Origin: Alphaproteobacteria bacterium
Lineage (GTDB): Bacteria; Pseudomonadota; Alphaproteobacteria; MPNO01; VGEU01
DNA: 62,158 nucleotides
Reading direction: 5' to 3'
NCBI GenBank assembly: GCA_016869145.1
Contig: VGEU01000008.1
Span: 1-62,158, forward strand
In this document: piece by piece, positions 8,650 to 24,907 of the stretch
Position numbering within the stretch: position 1 is the stretch's first letter
How the letters are laid out: every line of letters starts with the position of its first letter
The notes under the pieces: generated by a model
Told to the model about the DNA's origin: nothing
The model's database searches: none
Seen by the model: only the letters and a program-made list of their open reading frames with translations
Translations under genes and position numbers: made by a program

Positions 8650-10254
8650 TCAGCGCGGCAGGGCGGCGGCGGGGCGACGGAAGACGGTGAAGCGGCCGAT
8701 CGGCTCGGCGACCGGATAGGCGGTGTGGATCGCCGTCCACATCGCGCTCGTATAGAAGTCCTCGCGATCGTCTCGGACAACCACGAGATCGAACCAACCG
8801 GATGCGAGCCGGGCGACGAACGGCCGCTCGTCCCAGAGACCGGCTCCCGCCAGCATGGTCATGATCACAGGCTCGATGAGGACCGGCTTCCCCGCCTTCC
8901 GGATCAGCACCATGTCGTCGGCGTAGATCGGCCCGGGCGTCGCCGCCATGGCTGCGAGGACGCGTTGGGCGGCGGCGGTCTTGTCGGGCAAAGGCAGACG
9001 TGTCCAGCGCGCGCCGGCGACGAAGACGTGGACGGTCGCCGCCAGCATCAAGGCCGTCGCCGTCGCGATGGCGACCGATCGAGGGTTCTGCCGCCATGCC
9101 GCGCGGACGAACTCGACGAGGACGGCGGCGCCGAGGCCGAGCGAGACCGCCCAGCCGACGAACCACTCGTTGAAGTAGTTGCCCGCGGCACCCCACTTGC
9201 CGATGCCGAAGCCGGCGACGAGCCCGATCACGAAATGCGCGCCGAGCGCGACGACGGCCGCCGCCCGCGGATCGGCGCCGAGCACCGCCCGGAAGCCGTG
9301 CCCCCTCGTCCACGCCTCCGCGGTGAGCCGGCGCCCGTAGAGGAGAAGTCCGAGCGGGACGAGCGCCAGCGCCGCGAGGTTCATGTCCTCGACCAAATAA
9401 CGGCCGATGTTGGTCACCAGCGCGTCGAGGAGATACGGGTTGGTGTTGTAGAGGAAGAGATGACGCAGGACCTCGCCGTCGGTCGCAGCGACGAGCGCGG
9501 CGAGCGCCGCGGCACCGACGGCGGCGCACAGGGCGGCGACGCGGAGCGTCAGCGCCGGGCGCAGAAGATAAGAGACGAGGAAACATGCGGCGGCCGAGAC
9601 GATGATGCTCTGCTTGGCGTAGATCGCGGCGACGAAGGCGAGACCCGCGAGATAGAAGAGCCGCGGCCGCGTGAGCGAGGCGAAGAAGAGCGCGAGGCCG
9701 AGGCCGGCGAACATGACGGCCATCATGTCGACGCGAAAGTACGTCGACCATTGATAGAGGGGCGCGAATCCGAGCACCATGAGCCCGCCGACCAGGCCGC
9801 CGACGAGACGCGGCAGCGCGCCCGACATCGGCCCCGCGGCGCTCGACGCGGCTAGCCCGGCGAAGACGACGAGGAAGACCGTGCAGACGACCGAGACCGC
9901 GCGACCAGCCGCAAGCGGGTCGCCCCAGAGGGCGGCGATCGCCTTGGTCACGGCGTGGGAGAGCGGGGTGTAGTGGTAGACGATATGGGGAAGATCGTGC
10001 ACCGGGCGATAGAGGAATCCGTCCTGCAGCGCGTCCATCTGCTGCCATACGATCCCCTCGCCGTAATCGAGCTCGTACGGAAAGCCGATCGAGCCGAGCG
10101 CGTAGCGCGCGTAGTAGAAAGCCGTCAGCGCGAGGATCGCGAGGAGTAGTCCTGTCGCCAGCGCGAAGGCCGCGCGCACGGCGCCCGCCGCTACGAGCGA
10201 GCGCCGCCGCGATAGCGTCGCGCCGTCCACCGTCCCGAGCGTGCCCCGGCTCAT
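8650..10254 (-). CDS. Polytopic GT-C-type glycosyltransferase
   Basis: This 534-residue inner-membrane protein has about ten or more transmembrane helices. After the first helix comes the loop motif YELDYGEGIVWQQM (residues near 60-75), placed like the acidic GT-C catalytic loop that binds a polyprenyl-phosphate sugar. Further on are YHYTPLSHA and a long series of hydrophobic segments, then a soluble C-terminal tail. It starts within the stop of the upstream methyltransferase (ATGA), the last gene of an eight-gene run. It probably transfers a sugar from a lipid carrier on the periplasmic side, in this context perhaps arabinofuranose. Acceptor and sugar are inferred only from neighbours. Confidence 0.65.
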   Translation of the reverse strand: MSRGTLGTVDGATLSRRRSLVAAGAVRAAFALATGLLLAILALTAFYYARYALGSIGFPYELDYGEGIVWQQMDALQDGFLYRPVHDLPHIVYHYTPLSHAVTKAIAALWGDPLAAGRAVSVVCTVFLVVFAGLAASSAAGPMSGALPRLVGGLVGGLMVLGFAPLYQWSTYFRVDMMAVMFAGLGLALFFASLTRPRLFYLAGLAFVAAIYAKQSIIVSAAACFLVSYLLRPALTLRVAALCAAVGAAALAALVAATDGEVLRHLFLYNTNPYLLDALVTNIGRYLVEDMNLAALALVPLGLLLYGRRLTAEAWTRGHGFRAVLGADPRAAAVVALGAHFVIGLVAGFGIGKWGAAGNYFNEWFVGWAVSLGLGAAVLVEFVRAAWRQNPRSVAIATATALMLAATVHVFVAGARWTRLPLPDKTAAAQRVLAAMAATPGPIYADDMVLIRKAGKPVLIEPVIMTMLAGAGLWDERPFVARLASGWFDLVVVRDDREDFYTSAMWTAIHTAYPVAEPIGRFTVFRRPAAALPR

Positions 10255-10901
10255 CGTCGCTCACTCCCACGCGCGGGGGCGGCGATCACCAGCATCTGGC
10301 CGGCCAGCGGTCGCCACGGCAGGAGGAGATAGAGGCGGACCAGCGCCCGTGAAACCGGTATCCGCGACTTCATGGACAAGGGCAGGAACCGGGGCTCTAT
10401 CCGTTCGATGCGCCAGCCGTTCACGGCGAGGAAATCGGGCAGGCTCCGGTCGCTCCAGACCGCGACATGGCTGTAGTCGTCGAAATATTCGCGAAAAACG
10501 AGGCGCCAGTTGGGCTGCACGATCGCCAGCCGGCCGCGCGGGGCGAGTTTCGCCGCCAGCGCCGCCAGCGTCGCGGCGAATTCGGCCTTATCCATGTGCT
10601 CGAAGAGATTGCTTGCGAGCGCAAAGTCGACCGATCCATCCTCGATCGCATCGAGCTCGTGTGCGCGCGCGACGATCGCCTCGACCCCGGGTGCGAGATG
10701 CTCGACCATGCCCGGCCAGACGTCGACTGCGATGCGCCGCCGCGCCACCGCGGCGTTGATGAAATGGCCATGGCCCGCGCCGAGCTCGAGGACGCAGCCG
10801 TCCGGCGGCACGTAACGCGCGAACTGGAGGTCCCAGAGCGCCCGCCATACGACGTCGCGCCGGGGATCGTGGACGAAGCGCGTCGCGTGGTAGCCGCTCA
10901 C
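10251..10901 (-). CDS. SAM-dependent methyltransferase (class I)
   Basis: This 216-residue enzyme has a SAM-binding motif VLELGAGHGHFINA near residue 35, an acidic end of strand 2 (AVDVWPG) and motif LASNLFEHMDKAEF typical of type-11/23 methyltransferases. Its GTG start overlaps the GT2 stop (GTGA), and its own stop overlaps the next start (ATGA). Sitting between two glycosyltransferases, it probably methylates a lipid-linked sugar or glycan. The N-terminal residues HDPRRDVVWRALWDLQFARY resemble methyltransferases of polysaccharide clusters. Confidence 0.75.
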   Translation of the reverse strand: MSGYHATRFVHDPRRDVVWRALWDLQFARYVPPDGCVLELGAGHGHFINAAVARRRIAVDVWPGMVEHLAPGVEAIVARAHELDAIEDGSVDFALASNLFEHMDKAEFAATLAALAAKLAPRGRLAIVQPNWRLVFREYFDDYSHVAVWSDRSLPDFLAVNGWRIERIEPRFLPLSMKSRIPVSRALVRLYLLLPWRPLAGQMLVIAAPARGSERR

Positions 10902-11976
10902 GCCCGGCCCTCGCCCCGCCAGCCGAACAGGATGCCGCGGATCATCCTGAGACCGACGGAGAGCGCGCGGCGATTGTTGACATTGCCGCCCTTGCTGAGG
11001 CCGATGCGCTGATGAAACGTGATCGGGCACTCGACGATGTCGAGACCCGAGGCGAGCGCCATGTCGAGAAAGTGGGCGTTGAACTCGAGATTGACCGAAG
11101 GGTCGACGTGAGAGAGGAGGTCGCGCAATGCATCGTTGCGGCAGAGCTTGTAGGTGGTACCGACGTCGGTGAACGTACCGCGACCGAGATGCTTCGCCTC
11201 GAGGAGCTTCCCGACAAAGAGATTGCCGTAATACATGAAGGTCGAGAGCTGGGTCTCATAGGCGCGGAGCTGCTCGGAGATTCGCGTCCCGTTGACGATG
11301 TCGGCATGATCGATATAGGCGAGGAACTTGTCGATATCGTGGGCGCGAAATGTCCGATCGCCCTCGCAGAGGAGGGTCAGGTCGGTGTCGTCGAAGTCGA
11401 CCGCCGCGAGGTAGCAGCGTATGACGCAGCGGCCATAGCCCGGCCGCTCCTCGACCACCACGATCGCTCCGGCCGCCGCGGCACGCGATGCGGTGGCATC
11501 GCGGCTGTTGTTGTCGACGACGACGACGCGCGCGACGCGCGGGTGGCTGATGAAGTCCTTCACCGCCTCGGCGATCGATTCCTCGTCGTTATAGGCCGTG
11601 AGGGCCACGGTGACCTGGCGGTTGACGATCGCGTCGAACCGCACGGTCGAGCCGGCGCGTTTGCGCGGAAGGGGCACGAAGAGATCGATCGCCGCGAGCA
11701 GGATGCCGATCGTCACCGGCACGCCTGAATACCAGACAATCGCCTCGTTGAGGGCGAGGAAATCGCCGCCGAGGCCGAGGAGACGGCGGGGGGCGCCATC
11801 AGGACGCCGAGGACATAGAGCGCCAAACCGAGGAGGATCAGGCAGACGGCGAAATGGAGAAGGCGCAACGGACGCGCCGCGCGGCGGCTCCGCGTTTGCA
11901 GTTCCGACACGGCATCGATCGAGTTCTCGGTTCGGCCGGGAAGGAGATAATCCCGGTCGGCGGGCGGCGTCGGCAT
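10898..11976 (-). pseudogene. GT2-family glycosyltransferase (dolichyl-phosphate-sugar-synthase-like), frameshifted
   Basis: About 359 residues when repaired. The N-terminal piece (11713-11976) holds a membrane helix, LLHFAVCLILLGLALYVLGV. The main piece (10898-11722) is a GT2 catalytic domain with VTVALTAYNDEESI, VVVVDNNSRDAT and the metal-binding CEGDRTF, then GTTYKLCRNDAL. The frames join at a run of six Gs (11788-11793). Adding one G gives continuous sequence through RLLGLGGDFLALNEAIVWYS. It may load a nucleotide sugar onto polyprenyl phosphate or extend a glycan. It is followed by a GTGA overlap with the methyltransferase. All partners in the operon are intact, which favours a sequencing indel. 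Confidence 0.7.
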
Positions 11977-12050
11977 TGGTTCAGCCTATCACGACTGACG
12001 CCGCTTCCAGCGTGACATCTCGGTGGTCTCCGCGGAGAGGTCGGCCCGGT

Positions 12051-12788
12051 TCAGAGCTTCAGGCGCTTGAACACGGGTTCCGGGATCAGTTTGATGATCG
12101 TCATGATCGGCCACCAGAACCAGGGCGCGTAGACGACGTCCGCACCCTTGGTGACGGCGCGATGGATGGCGACGGCGACCGTCTCGGGTGCGGCGTAGAG
12201 GGCGTTCTTGGTCATACCCGCGGTCATCGGCGTGTCGACGAACCCGGGCTTGATCGTGACGACGCGGACGCCGGCGCGGTGGAGGCGATTGCGGAGCCCC
12301 TCGAGGAAGGTCGAGACCGCAGCCTTCGCGGTGCCATAGACATAGTTGCTCTGTCGGCCGCGATCGCCGGCGACCGAGGAGATCACGGCGATCGTCCCGG
12401 CGCGCGCCGCCTCGAACCGGTTGGCGATCGGGGTCAGGAGCGAGACCACGCTCAGGAAGTTGATATCGAGCTCGCGGCGCGCAGTCTCGAAGGCGGCCTG
12501 GCAGGCGAGCTGGTCGGAGAGCGTGCCGTGCGCGATGACGACGGTGTCGAGGCCGCCGAGCCGTTCCGCGGCCTCGTCGATCAGCGCAGCGTGACGATCG
12601 AACGCGGTCGCGTCGAAGACGAGTGTCTCGACCTGCGCGGCGCCACGGACGCGGAGATCGTCGGCGATCGCGGCGAGCCGGTCGGCGTCGCGGGCGAGGA
12701 GCGCGAGGCGATCGCCGTCGGCGGCGAACAGCCGGGCGACATGCTCGGCGATCGCCGATGTGGCACCGACGATCAGGGCCTTTCTCAT
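12051..12788 (-). CDS. DprE2-like short-chain dehydrogenase (decaprenylphosphoryl-2-keto-ribose reductase)
   Basis: This 245-residue Rossmann enzyme has the cofactor loop IVGATSAIAEHVA, AHGTLSDQ, and a catalytic block SSVAGDRGRQSNYVYGTAKA with the Tyr-x3-Lys pair, then VRVVTIKPGFVDTPMT. The stretch SSVAGxRxRxSNxVYGxxKA and the C-terminal APWFWWPIMTIIKLIPEPVF are close to mycobacterial DprE2, which reduces polyprenyl-phosphoryl-2-keto-ribofuranose to arabinofuranose with NADH. It overlaps the DprE1-like gene by an ATGA, matching the adjacent dprE1-dprE2 pair of mycobacteria. It is cytoplasmic or membrane-associated. Confidence 0.8.
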   Translation of the reverse strand: MRKALIVGATSAIAEHVARLFAADGDRLALLARDADRLAAIADDLRVRGAAQVETLVFDATAFDRHAALIDEAAERLGGLDTVVIAHGTLSDQLACQAAFETARRELDINFLSVVSLLTPIANRFEAARAGTIAVISSVAGDRGRQSNYVYGTAKAAVSTFLEGLRNRLHRAGVRVVTIKPGFVDTPMTAGMTKNALYAAPETVAVAIHRAVTKGADVVYAPWFWWPIMTIIKLIPEPVFKRLKL

Positions 12789-14113
12789 GACGGAACCTCC
12801 GCTTCGGCCGTGACACGGCGCCAGAAACTCGACGAGAAACGTGGATCGATGTGACGCGCGAACGTGCGCCAGCGTGGGAAGTAGAGGCGGAAGCTGTCGC
12901 CGCTCATGCGGGCGTCCTTGGCGGGATAGACCGCACCGCCGGCGGTCCTGACCACGTCGTCGAGACGGTCGAGAAGCGCGAAGGTGGAGACGCCGCGGTT
13001 CGGGAAATCGAGCGTGATGGTGAGCCCGGGACGGGGAAACGACATCAGCCCCGGCGAGGGAACGTCGCCGAAGCGTTTCAGGATGGTGAGGAACGAGCCC
13101 TCGCGCGCGGCGGCGACGCGGTCGAGGATCTCGCGCATCGCCTCGTTTCCGCCCGCCTCGGGAACCACGCACTGGTACTGCATGAAGCCCTTGCGGCCGT
13201 AGATCCGGTTCCAGCCGTGTATGGCATCGAGCGGATAGAAGAACGGATCGTAATGCTGGACCGCCTGCCGTCGCGCCGCAGCCTTCCCCCAATAGGTGGC
13301 GTTGAATGCCCGGACCGAGAGCGCGTTGACGACCGGCACCGGCATCTCGATCGGGACCGCGAGCCGACGGCGCGGCGCCGCGGGCCGCTCGCGCGTGGTC
13401 GGGGCCGCGTGATTGCCGCGCATGAAGAGCCCACGGCCGAGTGCCTTGCCGCGCGCCAGGCAATCGACCCAGGCGACCGTGTATTCGTAGTCGCGATCGG
13501 ATTCGGACGACAGCGCGAAGAACGCATCGAGCGAGCCGTAGCGGATCGTCTCGACGGCGAGGTTGGGGCTCGCGACGCGCTTCAGCGTGATTTCGGCGAC
13601 GAGGATCGCGCCGGTGAGGCCGAGGCCGCCGATCGTCGCGGCGAAGAGCTCGGCGTTCTCCGCCGGACTGCACCACAGCCGGATGCCGTCGGAACGGGCG
13701 AGGAGCAGGCGGCGGACATGGCGGCCGAACGTGCCGGCGACGTGATGGTTCTTGCCATGCACGTCATTGGCGATGGCGCCGCCGACGGTGACGAACTTGG
13801 TGCCGGGCGTCACCGGCGGGAACCACCCCTGCGGCAAGGCGAAGTCGATGATCTCGGCGAGGAGTATTCCCGCCTCGCAGCGGAGAATTCCCGTCGCCGG
13901 ATCGAAGCCGAGGAAACGGTCGAGGCCGCGCATGTCGAGAAGCGCGCCGCCGTCATTGAGGCAGCTGTCGCCATAGCTCCGGCCGTTGCCGAACGGGAGA
14001 TAATCGCGCGCCGGCGCGTTCCCGATCGGGAGCGGGTCGCTCCGCCAGGCGATGCGGCTCGCGGTCTGCGTCGCGGCCGGATAGCGGCCCCAGGATTGGT
14101 ACCGGTCCGCCAT
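12785..14113 (-). CDS. DprE1-like FAD-dependent epimerase subunit (polyprenylphosphoryl-ribose 2-oxidase)
   Basis: This 442-residue flavoenzyme (Mycobacterium DprE1 is 461) oxidises C2 of a polyprenyl-phosphoryl ribose. The FAD domain has FGNGRSYGDSCLNDGG near residue 45 and VHGKNHHVAGTFGRHV near 120, both characteristic of DprE1. The substrate domain has YQCVVPEAG, MSFPRPGLTITLDFPN and AVYPAKDARMSGDSF. The Lys in PAKDAR matches the essential DprE1 Lys418. At the position of the benzothiazinone-reactive Cys387 (WNICVDFP in Mycobacterium) this protein has Thr (LTITLDFP). The stop overlaps the DprE2-like start. A sugar-1,4-lactone oxidase is the main alternative, but the neighbours argue against it. 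Confidence 0.8.
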   Translation of the reverse strand: MADRYQSWGRYPAATQTASRIAWRSDPLPIGNAPARDYLPFGNGRSYGDSCLNDGGALLDMRGLDRFLGFDPATGILRCEAGILLAEIIDFALPQGWFPPVTPGTKFVTVGGAIANDVHGKNHHVAGTFGRHVRRLLLARSDGIRLWCSPAENAELFAATIGGLGLTGAILVAEITLKRVASPNLAVETIRYGSLDAFFALSSESDRDYEYTVAWVDCLARGKALGRGLFMRGNHAAPTTRERPAAPRRRLAVPIEMPVPVVNALSVRAFNATYWGKAAARRQAVQHYDPFFYPLDAIHGWNRIYGRKGFMQYQCVVPEAGGNEAMREILDRVAAAREGSFLTILKRFGDVPSPGLMSFPRPGLTITLDFPNRGVSTFALLDRLDDVVRTAGGAVYPAKDARMSGDSFRLYFPRWRTFARHIDPRFSSSFWRRVTAEAEVPS

Positions 14114-14115
14114 GC

Positions 14116-15555
14116 TCACGCGGCGAGCATCAGGATCAGCGCGACGCAGCGGCTCGGCGAATCGCGGAGCGCGAAGAGGACCGGGTCCTCCTGCAGCGTG
14201 CCGCGCCGGGCGGCGAGCCAGACGCGGCTGATCCAGTAGAGAATGAGCGGACAGACGAGCCAGACCGCCTCGGGATGCCGGTAGAGGAGGAGGACCTTCT
14301 CGCTGTTGACATAGAGCGCGAGCACGAGAACCGAGGTGTAGCCGCTCGCCGCGCCGAGCGCGTGCAGCGTCTCGAGATCGCTCACCTGGTAGCCCCGCCC
14401 CGCCGCGACCGTGCCGCCCGCCTCCTGGAGCGCGAGGAGCTCCGAGTATCGCTTCACGAGCGCGAGGCTCAGGAAGAAGAACATCGAGAACGCAAGGAGC
14501 CAGAACGAGAGCGCCACCGACACCGCCATCGCGCCGGCGACGATCCGAAGCGTGTAGAGCCCGGCGAGCACCAGGACATCGACAAGCTCGACGCGCTTCA
14601 GCCAGAAGGAATAGGCTGTGCTGGTGACGTAATAGAGGAAAAGCATGCCGAGGAAGACGAGCGGCAAGGCGCTCGCGATGACGAGCGCGAGCAGAAGGAG
14701 GAGCGGTGCCAGAAGGGCGGCATGCTGCACCGGCACACGGCCTGAGGCGATCGGACGATAGCGCTTGCGCGCATGGCGGCGATCGGCGGCGAGGTCGAGA
14801 AGATCGTTGACGAGATAGACGCTCGAGGCGGTGAGGCCGAAGGCGATGAAGGCGAGGATGACGTCGGCGAGAAGCCCGATCTCTCCCACCCGATGGGCCG
14901 CGAAGAGCGGCACGAGGAGGAGCAGGTTCTTGAGCCACTGATAGGGCTGCAGCGCGCGGAGATAGTCGGCGAGCCGTCCGCCGCCCGCATCGAACACACG
15001 GCCGACGCGGGCGATACGGCGGGCACGGTCGAGGACGCCGCGTCCGGGGCTCACGACGATCGCCTCGCGGGCATGCGGCCAGATCCGGAGATCGGGCGCC
15101 GCATTGCCGGCATAGTCGAATCCGTCGGTGCCGGCGAACGCCTGCATCCGCGCGAGCTTGGCCTCGCCCTTGAGGTTGGTCGCCTCGTCGCTCGCGATCA
15201 CGGCCTCGAAGAGATCGAGATGATCGGCGACGGCCCTGGCATAGCGCTCGTTGGTGGCCGTCGCGAGAACGAGGCGCCGCCCGGCGGCCTTCTCGGCGCG
15301 CAGGTGCTCGACGAGCGCCTCGTTATAGGGAAGCGAGGCGGCATCGATCTCGGCCCGCCGCGCCACCTCGTGCTTGAGGCTCGCCTTGCCGCGCGCGAAC
15401 CAGACCGGGAGCGCGAGCGCGTGGAGGGGGTTGCGCTTCAGGAGCGCGAGGATCGATTCGACCCCGACGTCGGTGCGGACGAGCGTGCCGTCGAGATCGA
15501 CGCAGAGAAGCGCGGCATCGGCGGCGGTCGTCGGGCGGGTCGCTGCACCTTCCAT
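14116..15555 (-). CDS. HAD phosphatase-UbiA prenyltransferase fusion (DPPR synthase-like)
   Basis: This 479-residue fusion has an N-terminal HAD domain with motif CVDLDGTLVRTD (Asp20, Asp22), VLATATNERYA and FDYAGNAAPD. From about residue 205 a UbiA domain has eight or nine helices: PYQWLKNLLLLVPLF, the Asp-rich NDLLDLAADRRHARKRYRP, and second motif FWLKRVELVDVLVLAGLY followed by TLRIVAGA. UbiA of this type transfers 5-phosphoribose from PRPP to polyprenyl phosphate, and the HAD part would then remove the 5'-phosphate. One gene could therefore supply the substrate of the DprE1-like enzyme encoded two bases downstream. It overlaps the upstream flippase-like gene (ATGA). Confidence 0.8.
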   Translation of the reverse strand: MEGAATRPTTAADAALLCVDLDGTLVRTDVGVESILALLKRNPLHALALPVWFARGKASLKHEVARRAEIDAASLPYNEALVEHLRAEKAAGRRLVLATATNERYARAVADHLDLFEAVIASDEATNLKGEAKLARMQAFAGTDGFDYAGNAAPDLRIWPHAREAIVVSPGRGVLDRARRIARVGRVFDAGGGRLADYLRALQPYQWLKNLLLLVPLFAAHRVGEIGLLADVILAFIAFGLTASSVYLVNDLLDLAADRRHARKRYRPIASGRVPVQHAALLAPLLLLLALVIASALPLVFLGMLFLYYVTSTAYSFWLKRVELVDVLVLAGLYTLRIVAGAMAVSVALSFWLLAFSMFFFLSLALVKRYSELLALQEAGGTVAAGRGYQVSDLETLHALGAASGYTSVLVLALYVNSEKVLLLYRHPEAVWLVCPLILYWISRVWLAARRGTLQEDPVLFALRDSPSRCVALILMLAA

Positions 15556-16571
15556 CACGAGGCGACCTCCGCTCGTGCCTTCGTCGACGCACCGGTCGCC
15601 TCGAGCAGAGCGAGCGCGATCATGCCGATCAGGACCGCGAGCCAGAGCGTCGCGAGGCGGCAGATGATCGCGGCGGAAATCGCGGTCATGGTGTCGACGC
15701 CCATCAGGACGAGGAGGAGCGTCATCACCGCCTCGGCGCTCCCGATCCCGCCCGGGATGAACGACATGGCGCCGGCGAGAATGCTGATCGAGTAGATGCC
15801 GATGGCGGTCGGCAGCGCGATGTCGACGGCGAGATAGTCGAGCATGACGTAGAATCCGACGCCCTCGGCGGCCCAGGCGACGAGCCCGATCGCGAGCGCG
15901 CCGTAGAAGATCCGGGCGCAGAGGAGCGTCGCGGCGTCGCGCTGGAAGCGCCTGAGGGCTGCGAGCGCGCGCTTGAGGAAGGCCCAGCCGAGGCCGCGCG
16001 CGATCGCCTCGATCAGGTCGAGCATCCAGGTCCCGCGATAGACTGAGAACAGGACGATCGCGGCGATGGCGGCGAGCGCGAGGAGCCAGCGCGATTCCTC
16101 GAAGTGGAGCGCGGTCAGCGTCGAGAGTGCGAGGATCGCCAGGAGATCCATGTAGCGCTCGATCATGAACGCCGCGAGGCTCGCGCTCATTGGCACGCCA
16201 TAGGGCAGGAGATAGATCGATCGCACCGCTTCGCCGGCCTTGCCCGGGCTGGTGACGAACGCGAATCCGGCGAGATAGATCCAGAAGTCGCGCCAGAACG
16301 GCACGCGCCCGCCGAACACCGTGATGTACCAGTGCCAGCGCAGAAAGCGGAAGAAATAGTTGGCGACCGAGTAGCCGATCAGGACCAGCCAGCCGATGGT
16401 ATCGATCCGGCCCATCGCATCGAAGATGCGCTCGCGGTCGCCGACGAGGACGATCGCGACATAGACCGCGATGCCGCCGGCGACGGAGAGGATCAGCGGC
16501 TGGATCATGCGCGCGAGGAGCGCGCGCGGGGTGCCGATCCGCTTGAGTTCGGCTTCGTCGAGGGCGCTCAC
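15555..16571 (-). CDS. UPF0104/LPG-synthase-TM family membrane protein, candidate lipid flippase
   Basis: This 338-residue polytopic protein has about eight helices and the conserved motifs FRFLRWHWYITVF, GFAFVTSPGKAGEAVRSIYL and the late SFIPGGIGSAEAVMTLLL, all marks of the lysylphosphatidylglycerol-synthase transmembrane family. Its bacterial members lack the synthase domain and are often found with glycosyltransferases, where a flippase role is suspected. The GTG start is inside the stop of the upstream glycosyltransferase and the stop overlaps the HAD-UbiA start. In this cluster it could move a polyprenyl-phosphate sugar across the inner membrane. Confidence 0.75.
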   Translation of the reverse strand: MSALDEAELKRIGTPRALLARMIQPLILSVAGGIAVYVAIVLVGDRERIFDAMGRIDTIGWLVLIGYSVANYFFRFLRWHWYITVFGGRVPFWRDFWIYLAGFAFVTSPGKAGEAVRSIYLLPYGVPMSASLAAFMIERYMDLLAILALSTLTALHFEESRWLLALAAIAAIVLFSVYRGTWMLDLIEAIARGLGWAFLKRALAALRRFQRDAATLLCARIFYGALAIGLVAWAAEGVGFYVMLDYLAVDIALPTAIGIYSISILAGAMSFIPGGIGSAEAVMTLLLVLMGVDTMTAISAAIICRLATLWLAVLIGMIALALLEATGASTKARAEVAS

Positions 16572-17887
16572 AACGTTGCTCCCGACGCAGCCCCCGGCGC
16601 CGCCGGCCGGTGACGCCGCCACATTCGCGCCAGCACCGCGAGCGCCCCGACATAGAGGAAAGGCTCGACCTCGAACCGCATGCGGTTGTTCTCGAACACC
16701 TCGATCGAGACACACACGATCGAGAGATAGAGAAGCGTCGCCCACATGAACAGGAGCATGATCTCCTCGGGCCGGCCGCGGAAGCCGCGGCGGGCGACGG
16801 CGACGAAGAGGCACACGCCGCCGGCGAGCGCCAGCGCGAGTGCGAGGATGACGGTCGGGCTCATTCGGCTCGCCTGTTCGAGCGCCGAATCGCGTTCGAC
16901 GGGCCCGGCGATCGCCTCGAGCACGAACCGGGGGAGCTTGCCGTAGACGGCGAGGTCATAGGCCGTCTCATAGGCCCTGATGCGGTCGCGGTTGGCATCG
17001 AGGAACGCATAGTCGGCGGGCGCGAGGGTGTAGTAGTAGCTCGACTTCATCCATGCCCACGCCATCGCTTTGGGGAAGTGACGGAGCGCGGCGAGGCTGT
17101 CCTGCCACAGCGTGCGCGAGGCCGCGGGATAGATGGCGTGGTTGTAGTTGATGTGGCCGGAGAACTTCCGCCACTGGTCGAGCACGGCGATGCCGGAGGA
17201 AGCGACGGTGCCGAGCACCGCCTCGTAGGCGTCCGGGCGGGCGAACTCGGGCAGGAGCGCGAGCCGCGACAGGACGCCGCGGTCGACGAGATCGGCGCGG
17301 ATCGGATCGGGCACGTGGCCGACGGCGAGCTTGGCGAGGCTGAGACCCATCCATGAGCTCGACCCGAAGGTCGCGAACAACGCGGCGTTCTTCGCGTAGA
17401 GCCCGACCACGAGAAGGAGCGGGATGACGGAAGCGAGCGCGGTCGTCCGCCACGAGACCGGGCGCGCGACGAGGAGGCCGATGACGACCGCCACCATCCA
17501 GGCGAGATGGAAGGCGCTCCGGGTGAGGACGACGGCGACGATGAGGGTGAAGACGGCGAGCCCCCAGCCGAAGCGCTCCGTCGCGGCGAAGCGAAGGATG
17601 GCATAGGCCGCAAGGATCAGGAGCCAGGCGACCGGCCCGGTATAGAAGAGCCAGTTCTCGTAGAGGACCGCGGGTGGCCCGACCATGAACACCGCGGTCG
17701 CCACGATCGCCGCCACCGGCCCGAGGCCGGCCTCGCACGCGATCGGCCAGCCGAGCCGTCCGGCGAGATCGGCAACGGCCGGCCCCGCCGCCACGACGAG
17801 GCCGAGCGCCGCGATGACGATCGTCATCGCCGGCGTCCTTGCCGGCCGGCCTCGCCGCCGCGTCGCTCCGATCGCGGTCCACCCCAT
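16568..17887 (-). CDS. Polytopic glycosyltransferase-like membrane protein
   Basis: This 439-residue protein has about nine hydrophobic segments. Recognisable is GPPAVLYENWLFYTGPVAW (near residue 75), a signature of GT-C-like proteins in polysaccharide clusters, and later KSSYYYTLAPADYAFLD and VFENNRMRFEVEPFL. Relatives usually have a longer N-terminus with an acidic catalytic loop before the YENxxFY motif. Here that part seems missing, so it could be N-terminally truncated or specialised. Start is uncertain: ATG at 17887 is preceded by a purine-rich GGGTGGGGG; ATG 17827 also fits. A minus-strand TATAGAAT at 17919-17926 may be the -10 of the operon promoter. First gene of the eight-gene run. 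Confidence 0.6.
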   Translation of the reverse strand: MGWTAIGATRRRGRPARTPAMTIVIAALGLVVAAGPAVADLAGRLGWPIACEAGLGPVAAIVATAVFMVGPPAVLYENWLFYTGPVAWLLILAAYAILRFAATERFGWGLAVFTLIVAVVLTRSAFHLAWMVAVVIGLLVARPVSWRTTALASVIPLLLVVGLYAKNAALFATFGSSSWMGLSLAKLAVGHVPDPIRADLVDRGVLSRLALLPEFARPDAYEAVLGTVASSGIAVLDQWRKFSGHINYNHAIYPAASRTLWQDSLAALRHFPKAMAWAWMKSSYYYTLAPADYAFLDANRDRIRAYETAYDLAVYGKLPRFVLEAIAGPVERDSALEQASRMSPTVILALALALAGGVCLFVAVARRGFRGRPEEIMLLFMWATLLYLSIVCVSIEVFENNRMRFEVEPFLYVGALAVLARMWRRHRPAAPGAASGATL

Positions 17888-17974: not shown

Positions 17975-20338
17975 TCAGGACGGACCGAGGCCGCGTCCGC
18001 GCTCGGCGAGCGCGCGGTCGAAGCGCGCGAGCTCGGCCGCGACGCGCCCATAGACGCTCTCCGCCGGGTAGGTGCCGTCCGGACCCGCGGCCCCGGCCTC
18101 CCGGCCCATGAAGAGCGCGATCGCATCGTCGACGTGGTCGATCGTGTAGACCGCGAAGCGGCCGGCCGCGACCGCCGCGGCGACGTCGTCACGGAGGATG
18201 ATATTCCGCTCATTGGCCTTGGGCACGACGACGCCCTGGCTGCCGGTGAGCGGCCCGGCCCCGACACAGGCGCGGAAGAAGCCCTCGATCTTGTGATGCA
18301 CACCGCCGACCGGCTGGGCGTTGCCGAGCTGGTCGACCGAGCCGGTGATCGCGAGATCCTGACGGAGCGGCAGGCCGGCGAGGTCCGAGAGCACCGCGAG
18401 AAGCTCGGCGAGCGAGGCGCTGTCGCCCTCGACTCCACCGTAACTCTGCTCGAAGGTGATCGAGCAGTTGAACGAGAGCGGGAACCGGCGTGCGAACTTG
18501 CCCGACAGGAAGCCCTGCAGAACCATCACGCCCTTCTGCTGGATCGGGCCGCCCAGCGCGACGTCGCGCTCGACATTGATGACGCCGTGACGCCCGACCG
18601 AGCCGCGCGCGGTCACCCGCGACGGCGCGCCGAACTCGTGGTCGCCGAGATCGCGCACGGTGAGCGCGTTGATCTGGCCGACCGCGGCCCCGTCGGTCGC
18701 GATCGCGATCATGCGGTCGCGGATCGCGTCCTGGATGCGGTCCTCGCTCCGCGCGTTGCGCCGGCGCCGGTTGGCGAGCGCCTGGACGATTTGGGCCTCG
18801 CCGATCATCCGGCCCTCGCCGCCGGCGAGCCGTGCGGCCTCGCTGACGACGTCCTCGATCAGCTCGAAGCGCGCGGTCAGCCGGTCGCGCCGACCCGACC
18901 AGCGCGCCGCAACACCGAGGAGGCGGATGGCCGCCGCGTCCTCGCATCCCGCCTTCGCGTGCGCCTCAGCCATGGCGTGGATCAGGCCGGCATAGGCCGC
19001 GAGGTTCTCCTCGCTCGCCTCCATGTCGGGATCGATGTCGGCCTTGACCTTGACATAGGTCTGAAAGTCCGGGTCCAAGGCGAGGAAGCCGTAATACCAG
19101 CGCGGCGCCGCGACCATCACGAGTTTGAGCTCGAGCGGAATGGCGCGGGGGAACGGCGCGCCCGCGATCGGGAGCGTGTTGGCGCGGTGCGGCTCCTCGA
19201 TCCGGATCTCGCGATCGCGGAGCGCGCCCTTGAGCGATGTCCACACGCCGTCGTCCTCGATGATCGCCTCGGCCCGGACGACGAGAACACCGCCGTTCGC
19301 GCGGTGGAGCGCGCCGGCGCGGATCATGGTGAAGTCGGTGTCGAGGGCGCCTTCGACTTGGCGGTATTCGATCCGGCCGAACAGGTTCTCATTGGTCGGG
19401 TTGGGCTCGACCACGATCAGCGGATGCGGGTCCTCGCCGTGATCGACCAGGAGGTTGACCGCGTAGCGACGCTCCGGTGCGTCGCGCACGGACGTGTGTC
19501 CCTCGTCGTCGGCGGGGCGAAACAGCGCGATGTTCTCGACGATGTCGCTCCGCATCCAGATCAGCCAACGCGTCATGCCGTGATGGCCGCCGAAATCGCG
19601 GATCATCGCCTCGATGTGGGGACCGATCGCGCTGTCGACCGCTTCGTGGCGTAATTCGTCGACGTGACGGTCGAATTCGCCGCGAAGACGCGTGGCCTCG
19701 CGCGCGACGGCGCGGAGACCCTCGCCGATGGCGGCCGAGGCCTCGCCGAGCGCGCGCAGCCGCTCGGGCGGCAGGCTCTCCTGCGCGACCGGCTGGCCGT
19801 CGGCACCGATCGGAAGGATCATCGTGCCCTTCTCGGTCTGGATGATGTCGAGCCCGACACGGCGCGCCTCGGTGCGAAGTGCGTCCATCGCGGCATCGAC
19901 GGCGGCATCCATCTCGCCGCTCTTGGCGCGGAGCCGGGCCTGGAGCCCCTCGTCGCCGAGGGCCGCATGGACGGCCTCGCGAAGCCTCGGGACCAGCGCC
20001 GCCATGTGCCGGGTGAAGTCGCGCCCCACGCCCGGTGGCAGCCGGAAGGGGATCGGGCGGTTCGGATGGCGGAAATTGTTGAGATAGATCCAGTCGGGCG
20101 CAGGCGGCCGCCGGCCGACATGGCTCTCGAGAAAGGCCCGCGTCGCGGTCATCCGACCGGATCGATCCTCGCCGACGACAAAGATGTTGAAGCCGACGTC
20201 CTCGATCGCGAGCCCGAGATCGATCGCCTCGCGTGCCCGCCGGTGGCTCGAGAGGTCGAACACGCTGGCGGCGCGGTCGGCCGTCGGTGTGAAACGGGGC
20301 AGGCCGACCTCGTCGGCGCCGAGACGTCGCGCGGTCAT
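17975..20338 (-). CDS. Lon-like ATP-dependent protease (LonH/YcbZ type, AAA_32)
   Basis: This 787-residue protein has an N-terminal AAA_32-type region and a C-terminal Lon S16 protease domain. The proteolytic dyad is present: Ser640 in YGGVEGDSASLAELL and Lys683 in GVHHKIEGFFRACVG, 43 residues apart as in Lon. The P-loop position reads NIFVVGEDRSGRMTATRAF; it lacks the Lys of a normal Walker A and departs even from the GPPGTGRHT form of this family, so ATP use may be weak or absent. There is no Lon N-domain. Its ATG overlaps the stop of the HpnN-like exporter, so the two are translationally coupled. It may act in membrane-associated quality control. Confidence 0.8.
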   Translation of the reverse strand: MTARRLGADEVGLPRFTPTADRAASVFDLSSHRRAREAIDLGLAIEDVGFNIFVVGEDRSGRMTATRAFLESHVGRRPPAPDWIYLNNFRHPNRPIPFRLPPGVGRDFTRHMAALVPRLREAVHAALGDEGLQARLRAKSGEMDAAVDAAMDALRTEARRVGLDIIQTEKGTMILPIGADGQPVAQESLPPERLRALGEASAAIGEGLRAVAREATRLRGEFDRHVDELRHEAVDSAIGPHIEAMIRDFGGHHGMTRWLIWMRSDIVENIALFRPADDEGHTSVRDAPERRYAVNLLVDHGEDPHPLIVVEPNPTNENLFGRIEYRQVEGALDTDFTMIRAGALHRANGGVLVVRAEAIIEDDGVWTSLKGALRDREIRIEEPHRANTLPIAGAPFPRAIPLELKLVMVAAPRWYYGFLALDPDFQTYVKVKADIDPDMEASEENLAAYAGLIHAMAEAHAKAGCEDAAAIRLLGVAARWSGRRDRLTARFELIEDVVSEAARLAGGEGRMIGEAQIVQALANRRRRNARSEDRIQDAIRDRMIAIATDGAAVGQINALTVRDLGDHEFGAPSRVTARGSVGRHGVINVERDVALGGPIQQKGVMVLQGFLSGKFARRFPLSFNCSITFEQSYGGVEGDSASLAELLAVLSDLAGLPLRQDLAITGSVDQLGNAQPVGGVHHKIEGFFRACVGAGPLTGSQGVVVPKANERNIILRDDVAAAVAAGRFAVYTIDHVDDAIALFMGREAGAAGPDGTYPAESVYGRVAAELARFDRALAERGRGLGPS

Positions 20339-22977
20339 GAACGGATCTCCTGTCCCGGCGGCGATTGCCGCCCGTTGCTCCGCATCGTCAGCGACAGCAT
20401 CGCCGGCAGGACGATCAGCGCGCAGGCGAGCTTCACCGTGATCGAGATGGTGAGAAGCTCGCCGAGGCTCGCCGTCCCCTGGTGCGGCGAAATCGCGAGC
20501 GTCCCGAACGAGCCGATCGTCGTCAGCGCGCTGAACATCACGCCGCGCGGCGTCGAGGTTCCGAGCAATGCCCCGGGGCCGTGGTGGCGGGCGCGGAAGA
20601 CGAGCTGGATCCCGCTCTCGACGCCGATCCCGATCAGCAACGGGAGCACGATGATGTTGGCGAAGTTGAACGGCTTGTCGAAGAGGACGACGATCGCGAT
20701 GGTGATGATCGCCGCGAGAACGACCGGAAGAAGGACCAGGAACACGTACCACGCGTTCCTGAGCAACAGGAACAGGAGAAGCGAGATACAGATGAGCGCG
20801 ATCAGCGAGGCGTCGAGAAAGGCGCCGAGGACCGCCTCGCCGGCGGCGAGGAAGATCACCGGCGCGTCCGTCGCGTTCGGCGCCACTGCGGTCACGTCGG
20901 CGACGAAGCGGCGGACCGCAGCCTCGTTGCCCTTGATCCGTTCCTTTGGATAGACCTCGATCCGCGCCCTGCCGTCGTCGGCGAGCATCCGCTTGCGGAG
21001 CTCCGCCGGCAGATTGCCGAAGCGCACCTCGGCCGCCTCGAGCGCCAGCCTGAGGCCCTCGATCCGCTGCGGCAGCGTGCCGACGAGGCGGGCCTCGACG
21101 GGCGCGAGATCGCCATTCCGGGCGAGGAGGCGATCGAGGCCGGCGCCCAGCCGTTCGAGCGTCGGCGCGAGATCGCGCGCCTGGCCGGAGGCGAGGGCGT
21201 TCCGGATGCGGTCGCGGAACTGGACGAGGCTCGCCCGCCGCGCCGCCTGGTCGGGCGGGGCAGCCGCCGTCGTGTCGCCGAGGACGGGGCCGAGGAAGAT
21301 CGCGAGATCCTCGATGAGCGCGAGCTTCTCCTTCTGGTCGCCGGGGACGAGCCGCGTCGCGGTGACGGCGCGCTCGACGGTCGGCAACGCCTCGAGCCGG
21401 CGCGCCAGGGTATCGGCGGTCGCGAGATCGGGCTGCAGGATCGAGATCGTGTAGCGGGCGACCTGCGGATCGGCGATGAGGTCGCGGAGCGTCTGAACGG
21501 ACTCGCGCGAGGGGTCCTTGAGCTCGAGCGGATCATGGCTGAACTTGATCTGGCCGAGAAAGGGGAGCCCGGCCAGCCCGATGACGACACCGATCACCGC
21601 GATCGGCACGCGGTGGCGGAATACCCAGTTGTCGATCTCGTCGGGCTCGGGCGGGCGATTCGGTACGCGCGGCGCGGGGTAGGGCAGAACCTGGTGCAGC
21701 GCCGGCAACAGCGTCAGGTTCATGAACAGCGCGATCAGCATGCCGACGCCCGCGATCAGCCCGAGCTCGGCGACGCCGTGATAAGGGGTCGGCAGGAACG
21801 AGAAGAAGGCGATGGTCGAGGCGAGCGCCGACAGCGTCAGCGCGCCGCCGCAGCCCGAGGCCGCGTCGCGGAGCGCGGCCCCGTGCGAGAGGCCGCGGTC
21901 GACGGCCTCGCCGTAGCGGAGCGAATAGTAGATGCCGAGATCGACCGCGAGGCCGATGAAGAGGACGGCGAAGGAGACCGAGATCAGGTTGAGCTCGCCG
22001 ACCGCAACCGCGGCGAAGCCGGCCGTCCACAGGAGGCCCAGCACGAGCGTCACCGTGACCGCGAAGGCGAGGCGCCAGGACTTGAGGCCGATCGCGAGGA
22101 GCACGATGACGAGGACGACCGAGGCGATCGACGCCACGCTCGCCCCGTGCTCGACGGATTCGAGCTCCTCGGCATCGAGCGCAGCGCCGCCGGTGAGCCG
22201 CACGGTGACGCCATTCTCCGGCGTCAAGGCGAGTTCCGCCGCCGTTGCGCGCACCGCGCGCATCGCCGCGGCCGCCGGTTTCAGCTTGGTGAAGTCGAGC
22301 CGCGGTCGGGTGACGATGATCTGGCGTTTGCCGTCGCCGTCGCGGCTCGCGCCCATCAAATTCGACCACGACACGCCGGGCGCACGGTCGTCGAGCACAT
22401 CGGCGATCGCCGCGAGCGCGGGTTGCAGCCGCTCCGCGCCCTCCGCTCCCTTGGCGATCTCGTCGAGGGCGAGGCCGAGCACCTCGGAGAGGCCACGGAG
22501 CGAGGGGTCCTGGGCGAGCGTGCCGATCAAAGGCTGCGCCGTGGCGAGGCTCTCGACGAGGGCGGAGAGGCGTTCGCCGCTCAGATAGAGAAGGCCGTTG
22601 CGGCGAAAGAACGGATCGCCCGCGCCATAGAAGACGCCGTCGATGACGTCGGTGCGCGCCGCGAGCCGCTCCGCCAGGCGCCGCGCCGCGTCCTGGGCAA
22701 GGTCGGCGTTGGTCCCGTTGACGACGACGACCAGCGTGTCGGAGAGGTTCGGGAAGGCGCGCTTGTACTCGAGATAGTTCTTCCGGAACGGCAGGTCCTC
22801 GGACAACATCCCGGTCGTATCCGTATTGATGCGGAGGTGGTTGACCGTGTAGCCGTAGAGCGCGGCCGCGACGCCGATCGAGATGGCGATGACGATCCAG
22901 GCATTGCGCCGCGCGAGGTCGACCCACGCGGCGCAGGCTTCGCAAAACCAGATCGCGCCGCGCTCCATCGAACCCAT
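20335..22977 (-). CDS. RND/MMPL family exporter, HpnN-like
   Basis: This 880-residue inner-membrane protein has two RND repeats, each with one N-terminal helix, a large periplasmic domain and a five-helix bundle. Motif examples are FAVLFIGLAVDLGIYYSLRY in repeat 1 and LPLLIGIGVESGIQLVFRAR in repeat 2, the Asp/Glu positions expected of proton-driven MMPL proteins. The pattern NTDTTGMLSEDLPFRKNYLE near residue 50 is characteristic of HpnN, which moves hopanoids to the outer membrane in Alphaproteobacteria. No other hpn genes are in the window. Its stop overlaps the Lon-like gene start. Confidence 0.75.
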   Translation of the reverse strand: MGSMERGAIWFCEACAAWVDLARRNAWIVIAISIGVAAALYGYTVNHLRINTDTTGMLSEDLPFRKNYLEYKRAFPNLSDTLVVVVNGTNADLAQDAARRLAERLAARTDVIDGVFYGAGDPFFRRNGLLYLSGERLSALVESLATAQPLIGTLAQDPSLRGLSEVLGLALDEIAKGAEGAERLQPALAAIADVLDDRAPGVSWSNLMGASRDGDGKRQIIVTRPRLDFTKLKPAAAAMRAVRATAAELALTPENGVTVRLTGGAALDAEELESVEHGASVASIASVVLVIVLLAIGLKSWRLAFAVTVTLVLGLLWTAGFAAVAVGELNLISVSFAVLFIGLAVDLGIYYSLRYGEAVDRGLSHGAALRDAASGCGGALTLSALASTIAFFSFLPTPYHGVAELGLIAGVGMLIALFMNLTLLPALHQVLPYPAPRVPNRPPEPDEIDNWVFRHRVPIAVIGVVIGLAGLPFLGQIKFSHDPLELKDPSRESVQTLRDLIADPQVARYTISILQPDLATADTLARRLEALPTVERAVTATRLVPGDQKEKLALIEDLAIFLGPVLGDTTAAAPPDQAARRASLVQFRDRIRNALASGQARDLAPTLERLGAGLDRLLARNGDLAPVEARLVGTLPQRIEGLRLALEAAEVRFGNLPAELRKRMLADDGRARIEVYPKERIKGNEAAVRRFVADVTAVAPNATDAPVIFLAAGEAVLGAFLDASLIALICISLLLFLLLRNAWYVFLVLLPVVLAAIITIAIVVLFDKPFNFANIIVLPLLIGIGVESGIQLVFRARHHGPGALLGTSTPRGVMFSALTTIGSFGTLAISPHQGTASLGELLTISITVKLACALIVLPAMLSLTMRSNGRQSPPGQEIRS

Positions 22978-23074: not shown

Positions 23075-24907
23075 TCAGGCGGTCGCCCGCGGCCGCTCGG
23101 CGAGCGGCGGCTCCAAGGGCGGCAGATCCTCGCGCGTCAGCGTCTCCTTTTCGAGAAGGAGACGGGCCCCGGTATCGAGCTGACGACGGTTGGTCGCGAG
23201 GATCGCCCGCGCCCGCGCAAAGGCCTCGTCGATGAGCGTCTTTACCGCGAGATCGATCTCGCTCGCCGTCGCCTCGCTGTACTCCCGCTCGAGAAATCCG
23301 GCGCGCGCCTGATCGCCGAGGAAGAAAGGGCGGCGGCTGTCATAGGCGGCCTGCCCGAGCGTCTCGTTCATGCCGAACCGGGTCACCAGATTGCGTGCGA
23401 TCTCGGAGGCCTTGCTGAGATCGTCGGCGGCGCCGGTCGACACCTCGTCGAAGGCGAGCGCCTCGGCCGCGCGCCCGCCGAGGAGGACAGCCATCCGGTC
23501 CTTGAGCTCGCGCCGCGTCATCAGGAATCGATCTTCGGTCGGCCGCTGCAGCGTGTAGCCGAGGGCGCCGACGCCGCGCGGGATGATCGAGATCTTGTGC
23601 ACCGGGTCCATACCGGGCAGCGCGGTCGCGACGATGGTGTGGCCCATCTCGTGATAGGCGACGACCGAGCGCTCGTGCGGCGACAGGACCCGGCTCCGCT
23701 TTTCGAGCCCGGCGACGATGCGCTCGATCGCGGCGGTGAAGTGATCCATTGTGACCGTGTCGGCGCCGGCGCGCGTGGCGAGGAGCGCCGCCTCGTTGAC
23801 GAGGTTGGCGAGATCGGCGCCCGTGAAGCCCGGGGTGAGCGCGGCGACCTGCGAAAGGTCAACCGTCTTCGCCGCCGCGATCTTCTTGATGTGCACCTCG
23901 AGGATCTGCACGCGGCCAATCTTGTCGGGCCGATCGACGAGCACTTGGCGGTCGAAGCGGCCGGCGCGGAGCAGCGCCTGGTCGAGGATCTCTGGCCGAT
24001 TGGTCGCGCCGAGGATGACGACGTCTTTGCGCGGATCGAAGCCGTCGAGCTCGACCAGGAGCTGGTTCAGCGTCTGCTCCTTCTAGTCGTGGCCGCCGAA
24101 ACCGCCCGCCATGCGGGCGCGGCCGACCGCGTCGAGCTCGTCGATGAAGATGATGCAGGGCGCGACCTTCTGCGCCTGGGCGAAGAGATCGCGCACGCGC
24201 GCGGCGCCGACGCCGACGAACATCTCTACGAAGTCCGAGGCCGAGATCGACAGGAACGCGACGTCCGCCTCGCCGGCGACCGCGCGGGCGAGGAGCGTCT
24301 TGCCGGTGCCCGCCGGGCCGACCAGGAGTATCCCCTTCGGGATGTGCGCGCCGAGGCGGCCGTATTCCTTCGGGTTCCGGAGGAAGGCGACGATCTCCTG
24401 GAGCTCGGCCTTGGCCTCGTCGACGCCGGCGACGTCGGCGAAGGTCACCTTGGTATCGCTCTCCATGTAGACCTTGGCCTTGCTCTTGCCGATCGACATC
24501 AGCCCGCCCATTCCCTGCTTCTCGGCGATGTTGCGGAAGAGGAACATCCAGATGCCGAAGAAGAGGAGGACCGGAAGGACCCAGGACAGGAGGTCGCGGA
24601 AGAACGTGTTCTCGATCACGCCGGTGTAGCGGACGCCGTATTTGCTCAGCATCTCGGCGAGCTCGGGGTCGACCCGGTTGGTGATGAACGCGCTCTCGCC
24701 GCCGGGCAGCGGCTCGCGCAGCCTGCCCTGGATCTTGTTCTCGCGGATCGCGAGCTCCTCGATCTTGCCGGCCTTGAGGAGCTCCTCGAACTGACTGTAG
24801 GGGATCGGCGCGACCCGGCTCTACTGGCTCCACCAGCCCTGGAACAGGAGGATCACACCGAGCGCGATCATCACGTACCAGAGCTTGAACTGCGCCTTCT
24901 TGTCCAT
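23075..24907 (-). pseudogene. ftsH: FtsH-type AAA zinc metalloprotease with two in-frame TAG codons
   Basis: Read through, this is a 610-codon FtsH: one N-terminal helix (FKLWYVMIALGVILLF), a periplasmic domain with [17 protein letters not shown], a second helix, then AAA motifs [22 protein letters not shown] and [20 protein letters not shown], and zinc motif AYHEMGHTIVA with the distal Asp in STGAADDLSKAS. Codon 29 (24821-24823) and codon 275 (24083-24085) are TAG. The second lies in GGFGGHD-x-KEQTLNQ, where FtsH normally has Glu. Everything else is intact and well conserved. It is isolated from tilS/glmM, so it may be a second, dispensable FtsH. Sequencing error, decay or readthrough are all possible. 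Confidence 0.85.

Follow-up and report, generated by a model that had tools for sequence, protein, structure and literature searches.

We analysed a 62,158-base stretch of DNA (the window, an entire contig) from an alphaproteobacterial genome of 3.93 Mb in 247 contigs with a completeness rating of 99.18%, and we consider it likely that eight consecutive open frames on its minus strand, at 17920-8650, make up a Gram-negative route to a lipid-linked D-arabinofuranose (Araf) donor together with a separate module for sugar transfer. An earlier note on this DNA had named the families of these eight genes correctly. In transcription order they are as follows.

GT-C1, 16568..17920, minus strand: GT-C-like membrane glycosyltransferase, apparently N-terminally truncated; three homologues at 25-26% identity, no Pfam or NCBIfam match.
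PF03706/UPF0104 protein, 15555..16571, minus strand: membrane protein, candidate flippase; PF03706 3.9e-36, TIGR00374 1.2e-25.
HAD-UbiA fusion, 14116..15555, minus strand: putative phosphoribosyltransferase to polyprenyl phosphate and 5-phosphatase; NF006088 4.2e-189.
DprE1, 12785..14113, minus strand: DprE1-like flavin adenine dinucleotide (FAD) oxidase; NF053785 1.3e-113, PDB 4aut 7.2e-73.
DprE2, 12051..12788, minus strand: DprE2-like short-chain dehydrogenase/reductase (SDR); NF005489 2.2e-101, best PDB match 21gq_C (DprE2) 9.2e-30.
GT2, 10898..11976 (open frame from 11722), minus strand: polyprenyl-phosphate-sugar-synthase-like; PF00535 4.3e-8, AglJ TIGR04182 2.4e-17 (below cut-off).
Methyltransferase, 10251..10901, minus strand: S-adenosylmethionine-dependent, of the GT2-methyltransferase-GT-C2 trio; PF13489 2.2e-10.
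GT-C2, 8650..10254, minus strand: GT-C/GT39-like transferase; no direct Pfam match, LDYxEG motif after the first helix.

By these coordinates, 4-base overlaps join GT-C1 to the flippase gene, DprE1 to DprE2, GT2 to the methyltransferase and the methyltransferase to GT-C2, and the flippase and HAD-UbiA genes have 1 base in common; the description of nearly all genes as overlapping stop to start stands to that extent but not for HAD-UbiA and DprE1, which are separated by a 2-base gap, or for DprE2 and GT2, which do not overlap.

In the pathway that we propose, the HAD-UbiA protein would transfer phosphoribose from phosphoribosyl pyrophosphate to polyprenyl phosphate, presumably undecaprenyl phosphate, and then remove the 5-phosphate, after which DprE1 would oxidise and DprE2 reduce C2 of the lipid-linked ribose to give polyprenyl-phospho-D-arabinofuranose. 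Flipping of this donor across the membrane would fall to the PF03706 protein, and on the periplasmic side a GT-C transferase would pass arabinofuranose to an acceptor glycan or protein. GT2, the methyltransferase and GT-C2 would form a second module (a lipid-phosphate-sugar synthase, a methyltransferase and a GT-C) joined to the donor module. That these reactions take place in the host organism is inferred, as are the flipping step and the identity of transferase and acceptor.

The donor core

The HAD-UbiA fusion (Pfam UbiA 1.4e-22, HAD 2.8e-9) passes the cut-off of NF006088 and matches NF008978, the decaprenyl-phosphate phosphoribosyltransferase model, below its cut-off (4.3e-47); among solved structures, the mycobacterial phosphoribosyltransferase (PDB 8j8j, 1e-29) is closest to it. 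It carries HAD D20 and the UbiA motifs NDLLDLAAD at 250 and KRYSE at 368, which give residues N250, D251, D254, D258, R369 and E372. Each lies exactly 3 positions further along than its counterpart among N247, D248, D251, D255, R366 and E369 of Citrobacter ORF15, the residues mutated by Kelly et al. according to the sections of their paper cited here (PMC11127046).

In a PDB search with DprE1, nine different DprE1 sequences of solved structure came first, with E-values from 7.2e-73 to 4e-70; the best match to any other protein was 4.8e-8. Its motifs HGKNHH at 119 and AKD at 398 are kept, its Pfam match is FAD_binding_4 (3.4e-18), and in the alignment its Thr367 stands opposite the CVDFP-motif cysteine of mycobacteria, which we take to be the residue bound by covalent DprE1 inhibitors. 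For the SDR (adh_short 8e-37, motif YGTAK at 151), NF005489, an unnamed SDR model, gives the highest score and is over its cut-off, and in the PDB search DprE2 comes top, with the runner-up at 6.8e-20. Thus, the enzyme families and the catalytic motifs of HAD-UbiA, DprE1 and DprE2 can be read from the DNA, and with these motifs intact the three proteins match the route from polyprenyl-phospho-ribose to polyprenyl-phospho-arabinofuranose. The earlier note had placed them in the DPPR/DPA families, and their mycobacterial best solved relatives agree with this. A sugar-lactone oxidase or another UbiA function, such as that of a homogentisate prenyltransferase, was rejected on the family-model scores; on DprE1, the FAD-linked and lactone oxidase models reach only 1.4e-7 and 2.9e-7 (30.8 and 29.8 bits, versus 380.6 for the DprE1 model).

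Distribution of DprE1 and its neighbourhood

A scan of named genomes gave at least 581 stretches encoding a DprE1 relative, and the best 80 by DprE1 score were kept; because these are the best 80 of at least 581, some on short contigs, shares among them are not natural frequencies. Among 191 genomes of other relatives of the source organism, 19 had DprE1 relatives at E<=1e-30, and 18 of these 19 own-class loci were compared, a 3.2-kb contig (G090) being left out. With the window proteins as tblastn queries, 71 of the 80 loci matched DprE2, 58 matched UbiA (49 of them HAD-fused), 25 the PF03706 protein and 4 the methyltransferase; no locus gave a match to GT-C1, GT-C2 or GT2. The own-class loci contained UbiA in 15, DprE2 in 17, PF03706 in 4 and the remaining window proteins in none.

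The closest DprE1 among the matches listed for named genomes is a Methylococcaceae protein at 66% identity; for loci from named Alphaproteobacteria the highest identity among the matches listed is 58% (Mesorhizobium L070 and Bosea L084), and own-class loci reach 52% by tblastn. In a DprE1 tree of 99 rows, three of them very long, the nearest rows to that of the window are gammaproteobacterial and acidobacterial, and no starred branch includes the window row. The tree fits horizontal transfer without proving it, and the argument is weakened by the alphaproteobacterial relatives at 58%. No phage record matched the DprE1 query at E<=1e-20, and 64 plasmid records, 34 of them from Rhizobium, carry DprE1 relatives. 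Given these plasmids, the 19 of 191 relatives' genomes and the enzyme set described in the cited sections of published work (PMC11127046, PMC5080398), the suggestion that such a system had not yet been described in this lineage is too strong and finds no support.

In five loci (L041, L055, L074, L119 and L061), genes that we call GtrA-like, nicotinamide adenine dinucleotide (NAD)-epimerase-like and FAD-oxidoreductase-like, names presumed from resemblance, recur round the core, in four of them with a methyltransferase. The window cluster contains none of these three kinds of gene.

A candidate flippase beside the core

The window PF03706 protein scores 125.5 bits against a curated cut-off of 33.4, so that a flippase candidate of the cluster's own, as had been claimed, does lie beside the core. 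With the PF03706 profile, a gene of this family was found in 26 of the 80 stretches, and for 24 of these no more than 300 bp separate it from a core gene. Its placement varies: it may precede HAD-UbiA, stand between UbiA and DprE1 or follow DprE2, the last for example in L095 (Pseudomonas fluorescens HK44). For the genomes of 39 of the 80 loci, hand-picked chiefly because their flanks are long (some long loci being left out, for example L041, L056, L089, L108, L116 and L119, the last of which has PF03706), we counted 1 to 7 copies per genome; the mean of 2.59 means that about 0.36 would be expected by chance in 39 stretches of 21.3 kb, and 16 were observed. The chance figure takes every stretch as 21.3 kb (37 of the 39 have at least 21 kb; L047 has 18.9 and L061 16.2 kb), uses rounded genome sizes and a Poisson model and ignores relatedness.

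Some loci have a GtrA gene, at least 17 of the 80 and at least 3 of the 18 own-class loci, counts that are lower bounds because the GtrA gene of L061 was missed. GtrA stands alongside PF03706 in 6 of the 80. Some GtrA genes directly adjoin the core, and in some loci GtrA occupies the places of PF03706, behind DprE2 in L041 and before HAD-UbiA in L061. The family matches of the eight window genes include neither a MATE/SMR nor a GtrA family, with both GT-C frames matching nothing. In L099 (1082-3037), a 652-residue frame directly before HAD-UbiA gives a weaker PF03706 match (4.3e-44) and is possibly a flippase joined to something else.

A flippase role for the PF03706 family has been predicted from archaeal and MprF evidence, according to the cited sections of PMC5898192. 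The listings of open-access papers that we consulted showed no link between PF03706 and arabinose, and in the main text of Kelly et al. (PMC11127046; the supplement with the candidate loci lay outside this term search) the terms PF03706, UPF0104 and alphaproteobacteria are absent. From its gene neighbourhood, we regard the window protein as a candidate flippase for polyprenyl-phospho-arabinofuranose. More generally, we lean slightly towards the view that proteins of the PF03706/UPF0104 family, which are related to the flippase domain of MprF, serve as dedicated polyprenyl-phospho-D-arabinofuranose flippases in many Gram-negative bacteria, alongside the MATE/SMR and GtrA types.

Signs of damage

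Searches with GT-C1 came back empty both on plasmids and, at E<=1e-3, across 384 further genomes of the class. A phylum-wide search (299 genomes) gave matches in 22 other genomes at E<=0.1, and the five below 1e-4 were followed up; clear homologues, at 25-26% identity, remained in three of these genomes, all from a single genus that belongs to another class. The frames in the other two (G579 and G576) were dropped when phmmer did not retain them; we take them to begin like a chloride channel. All three homologues have about 100 extra residues near the N terminus that are missing in GT-C1; these include the first membrane helix and a loop with acidic residues and a QAPGFN or QPPLYN motif. Only 54 bases separate the first ATG of GT-C1 from the stop of the upstream lonB, and lonB, which aligns with its five best relatives to residue 781-783 of 787, leaves no room for the missing N terminus.

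The GT2 open frame starts at 11722, 328 bases past the DprE2 stop, and its N-terminal membrane part lies upstream in another frame with an ATG at 11976; three plasmid relatives carry this part in frame. We therefore rejected a 328-base intergenic gap, since the out-of-frame N terminus fills most of it, leaving about 74 bases between DprE2 and GT2 and an apparent frameshift within GT2. A second ftsH gene (23075-24900, minus strand) has in-frame TAG codons at 24821-24823 and 24083-24085, and an intact ftsH is present on contig C23. With GT-C1 truncated, GT2 apparently frameshifted and these stops in ftsH, the earlier description of the pathway as complete-looking was too strong. The damage may reflect decay or assembly error, because in an assembly of 247 contigs the frameshift and stops may be errors.

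These signs speak for an alternative in which the locus is decaying, the donor genes persisting while transfer has been lost or is being lost. We nevertheless consider it unlikely, because the catalytic motifs of the donor enzymes are kept, the flippase and GT-C2 frames are intact, the frameshift and stops have the other possible origin just given, and the genome holds other GT-C genes (four PMT_2 matches, three over the cut-off). If the locus is instead a donor pathway beside a separate transfer module, the truncation of GT-C1, which heads the donor module, means that the arabinosyltransferase would be GT-C2 or an unlinked GT-C, or that the last step is being lost.

A probable second module of GT2, methyltransferase and GT-C2

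Nothing matched GT-C2 at E<=1e-5 when the genomes of 115 other relatives were searched, and a class-wide search with GT2 turned up distant relatives only, in 9 out of 288 further genomes (E<=1e-15), with the top match at 1.2e-29 and 31% identity. On plasmids, GT-C2 had five matches (Polymorphobacter 2, Sphingobium 3), all on plasmids typed as non-mobilizable. The order GT2, methyltransferase, GT-C2 was present in all three Sphingomonadales plasmid stretches inspected, with identities to the window proteins of 63-65%, 50-53% and 31-32%, respectively. These stretches of about 19 kb gave no match to DprE1 or the rest of the donor module, the remainder of those genomes lying outside the DprE1 search. 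In one of the three, the trio has a GtrA gene next to it, and one of the three plasmid GT-C2 relatives passes the PMT_2 cut-off (27.9 versus 26.1 bits). All four GT-C2 proteins have, past the first helix, a PYxLDYxEG motif that does not vary at its fixed positions, D63 and E66 among them (window LDYGEG at 62). The Pfam matches of the other two proteins are Glycos_transf_2 for GT2 (4.3e-8) and Methyltransf_23 for the methyltransferase (2.2e-10). On a Sphingobium plasmid (L133, 7222-15609), two glycosyltransferase-methyltransferase pairs, accompanied by large unnamed proteins, lie next to each other, suggesting a plasmid-borne glycan cassette.

On plasmids, without DprE1, the trio thus forms a unit of its own, which probably combines a lipid-phosphate-sugar synthase and the transferase that goes with it, and the eight window genes look like two modules: GT-C1, PF03706, HAD-UbiA, DprE1 and DprE2, followed by GT2, the methyltransferase and GT-C2. 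The earlier note had read them as one arabinose pathway, in which the arabinofuranosylated glycan would also be the substrate of GT2 and the methyltransferase, with both GT-C proteins transferring arabinose. All the genes do lie on one strand, mostly with overlapping stops and starts, and 4 of the 80 loci, among them L041 with the closest DprE1 relative, have a related methyltransferase (32-38% identity) in the vicinity of the arabinose core. The plasmid stretches, the failure to find GT2, GT-C1 or GT-C2 in any of the 80 loci and the missing N-terminal loop of GT-C1, which speaks against two working transferases, leave this version improbable.

Findings that weigh against the proposed reading

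Several findings count against the two-module arabinofuranose reading that we prefer. DprE1 and DprE2 fall short of the cut-offs of their equivalog models, with 380.6 bits against 500 for NF053785 and 193.7 bits against 250 (4.1e-57) for NF053786. No PF03706 gene was seen in the stretch examined for 54 of the 80 loci. GT-C1, by comparison with its homologues, is N-terminally truncated and not a whole GT-C, and phmmer over the frames of 98 DprE1 loci found no frame like GT-C1, GT-C2 or GT2 even at E<=1. The GT-C1 and GT-C2 frames have no Pfam match even with a loose limit, PDB sequence searches with them gave only unrelated proteins at a best E of 0.04 or more, and AlphaFold single-sequence models were too poor (mean predicted local distance difference test scores of 43.5 for GT-C1 and 45.7 for GT-C2), so that the GT-C fold of both stays a prediction. 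The sub-cut-off scores and the unnamed top model of the SDR could also indicate that the two enzymes act on another substrate, such as a sugar lactone or another pentofuranose epimer, but we find this hardly credible given the far lower lactone oxidase scores, the UbiA gene near DprE1 in 58 of the 80 loci and the cited sections of PMC11127046, in which DprE1/E2 homologues are paired with Araf and the ORF13-type SDR with xylofuranose.

Neighbouring genes

Directly upstream of the cluster lie a LonB-like protease gene (17975-20338, minus strand) and hpnN, of a hopanoid transporter family (20335-22968, minus strand; 2.3e-285); LonB relatives are present in 16 of 30 other relatives' genomes. A further GT39/PMT_2-type transferase (4.9e-6) is encoded on the plus strand at 52629-54179, separate from the cluster. 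The kinship of the genome with Alphaproteobacteria is based on IspG, for which the best seven plasmid matches listed (73-75%) come from genera of Rhizobiales type.

Known systems and significance

Kelly et al. (2024) describe, in the cited sections of PMC11127046, Gram-negative HAD-UbiA/DprE pentofuranose systems in which HAD-UbiA makes lipid-phospho-ribose, DprE1/E2 homologues belong to candidate Araf systems and the proposed flippases are of the MATE/SMR type. The window resembles their three-component systems of Citrobacter youngae O1/O2, as set out there, in its HAD(PRP)-UbiA protein with the same active-site residues, its adjoining epimerase and its proposed flippase and GT-C. It differs in having PF03706 rather than the MATE/SMR-type ORF14, a truncated head GT-C and an extra GT2-methyltransferase-GT-C trio, and no O-antigen locus was recognised among the window genes scanned. 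The three-component GT-C has an extracytoplasmic catalytic loop after the first helix; GT-C1 lacks it, and GT-C2, with its LDYGEG at 62, belongs to the other module.

The phosphoribosyltransferase, DprE1 and DprE2 are homologous to those of the mycobacterial decaprenyl-phospho-arabinose pathway (Rv3806c, Rv3807c, DprE1, DprE2, Rv3789). Unlike that pathway, the window has a fused HAD rather than an Rv3807c-type phosphatase, PF03706 in place of Rv3789, Thr367 for the CVDFP cysteine and GT-C frames without a Pfam match. Rhizobial arabinosylation genes, noeCNHOP in Rhizobium IRBG74 and noeCHOP in Azorhizobium (cited sections of PMC5080398 and PMC2443382), are likewise alphaproteobacterial homologues of the mycobacterial enzymes, and there they D-arabinofuranosylate the Nod factor. 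In contrast, the window phosphatase is fused, with no separate NoeN, and no nod genes were found among the scanned window genes; a genome search for NodA was empty, which does not prove absence because control genomes were empty likewise. The pilin arabinosylation system of Pseudomonas paraeruginosa (PSPA7_6245-6251, TfpW; cited sections of PMC12369383) is another Gram-negative D-Araf donor pathway, whose TfpW and pilin genes were not seen among the scanned window genes, where no dedicated search was made. The trio resembles GtrB plus a GT-C of the Gtr-type hexose modules (GtrA, GtrB, Gtr), but it has an added methyltransferase and the cluster lacks GtrA.

Since such gene sets are known in other bacteria, the window cluster is a new example and not a new kind of pathway; judged by its sequence, the donor pathway is real and known in kind. 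How common DprE1 relatives are in bacteria other than mycobacteria matters for how selective DprE1 inhibitors can be (Thr367 here, cysteine in mycobacteria). The most interesting part of the cluster is the recurring PF03706 neighbour, which is little studied and worth an experiment: lying beside the core in several gene orders, it offers a genetically simple setting, in non-pathogenic hosts, for testing a flippase.

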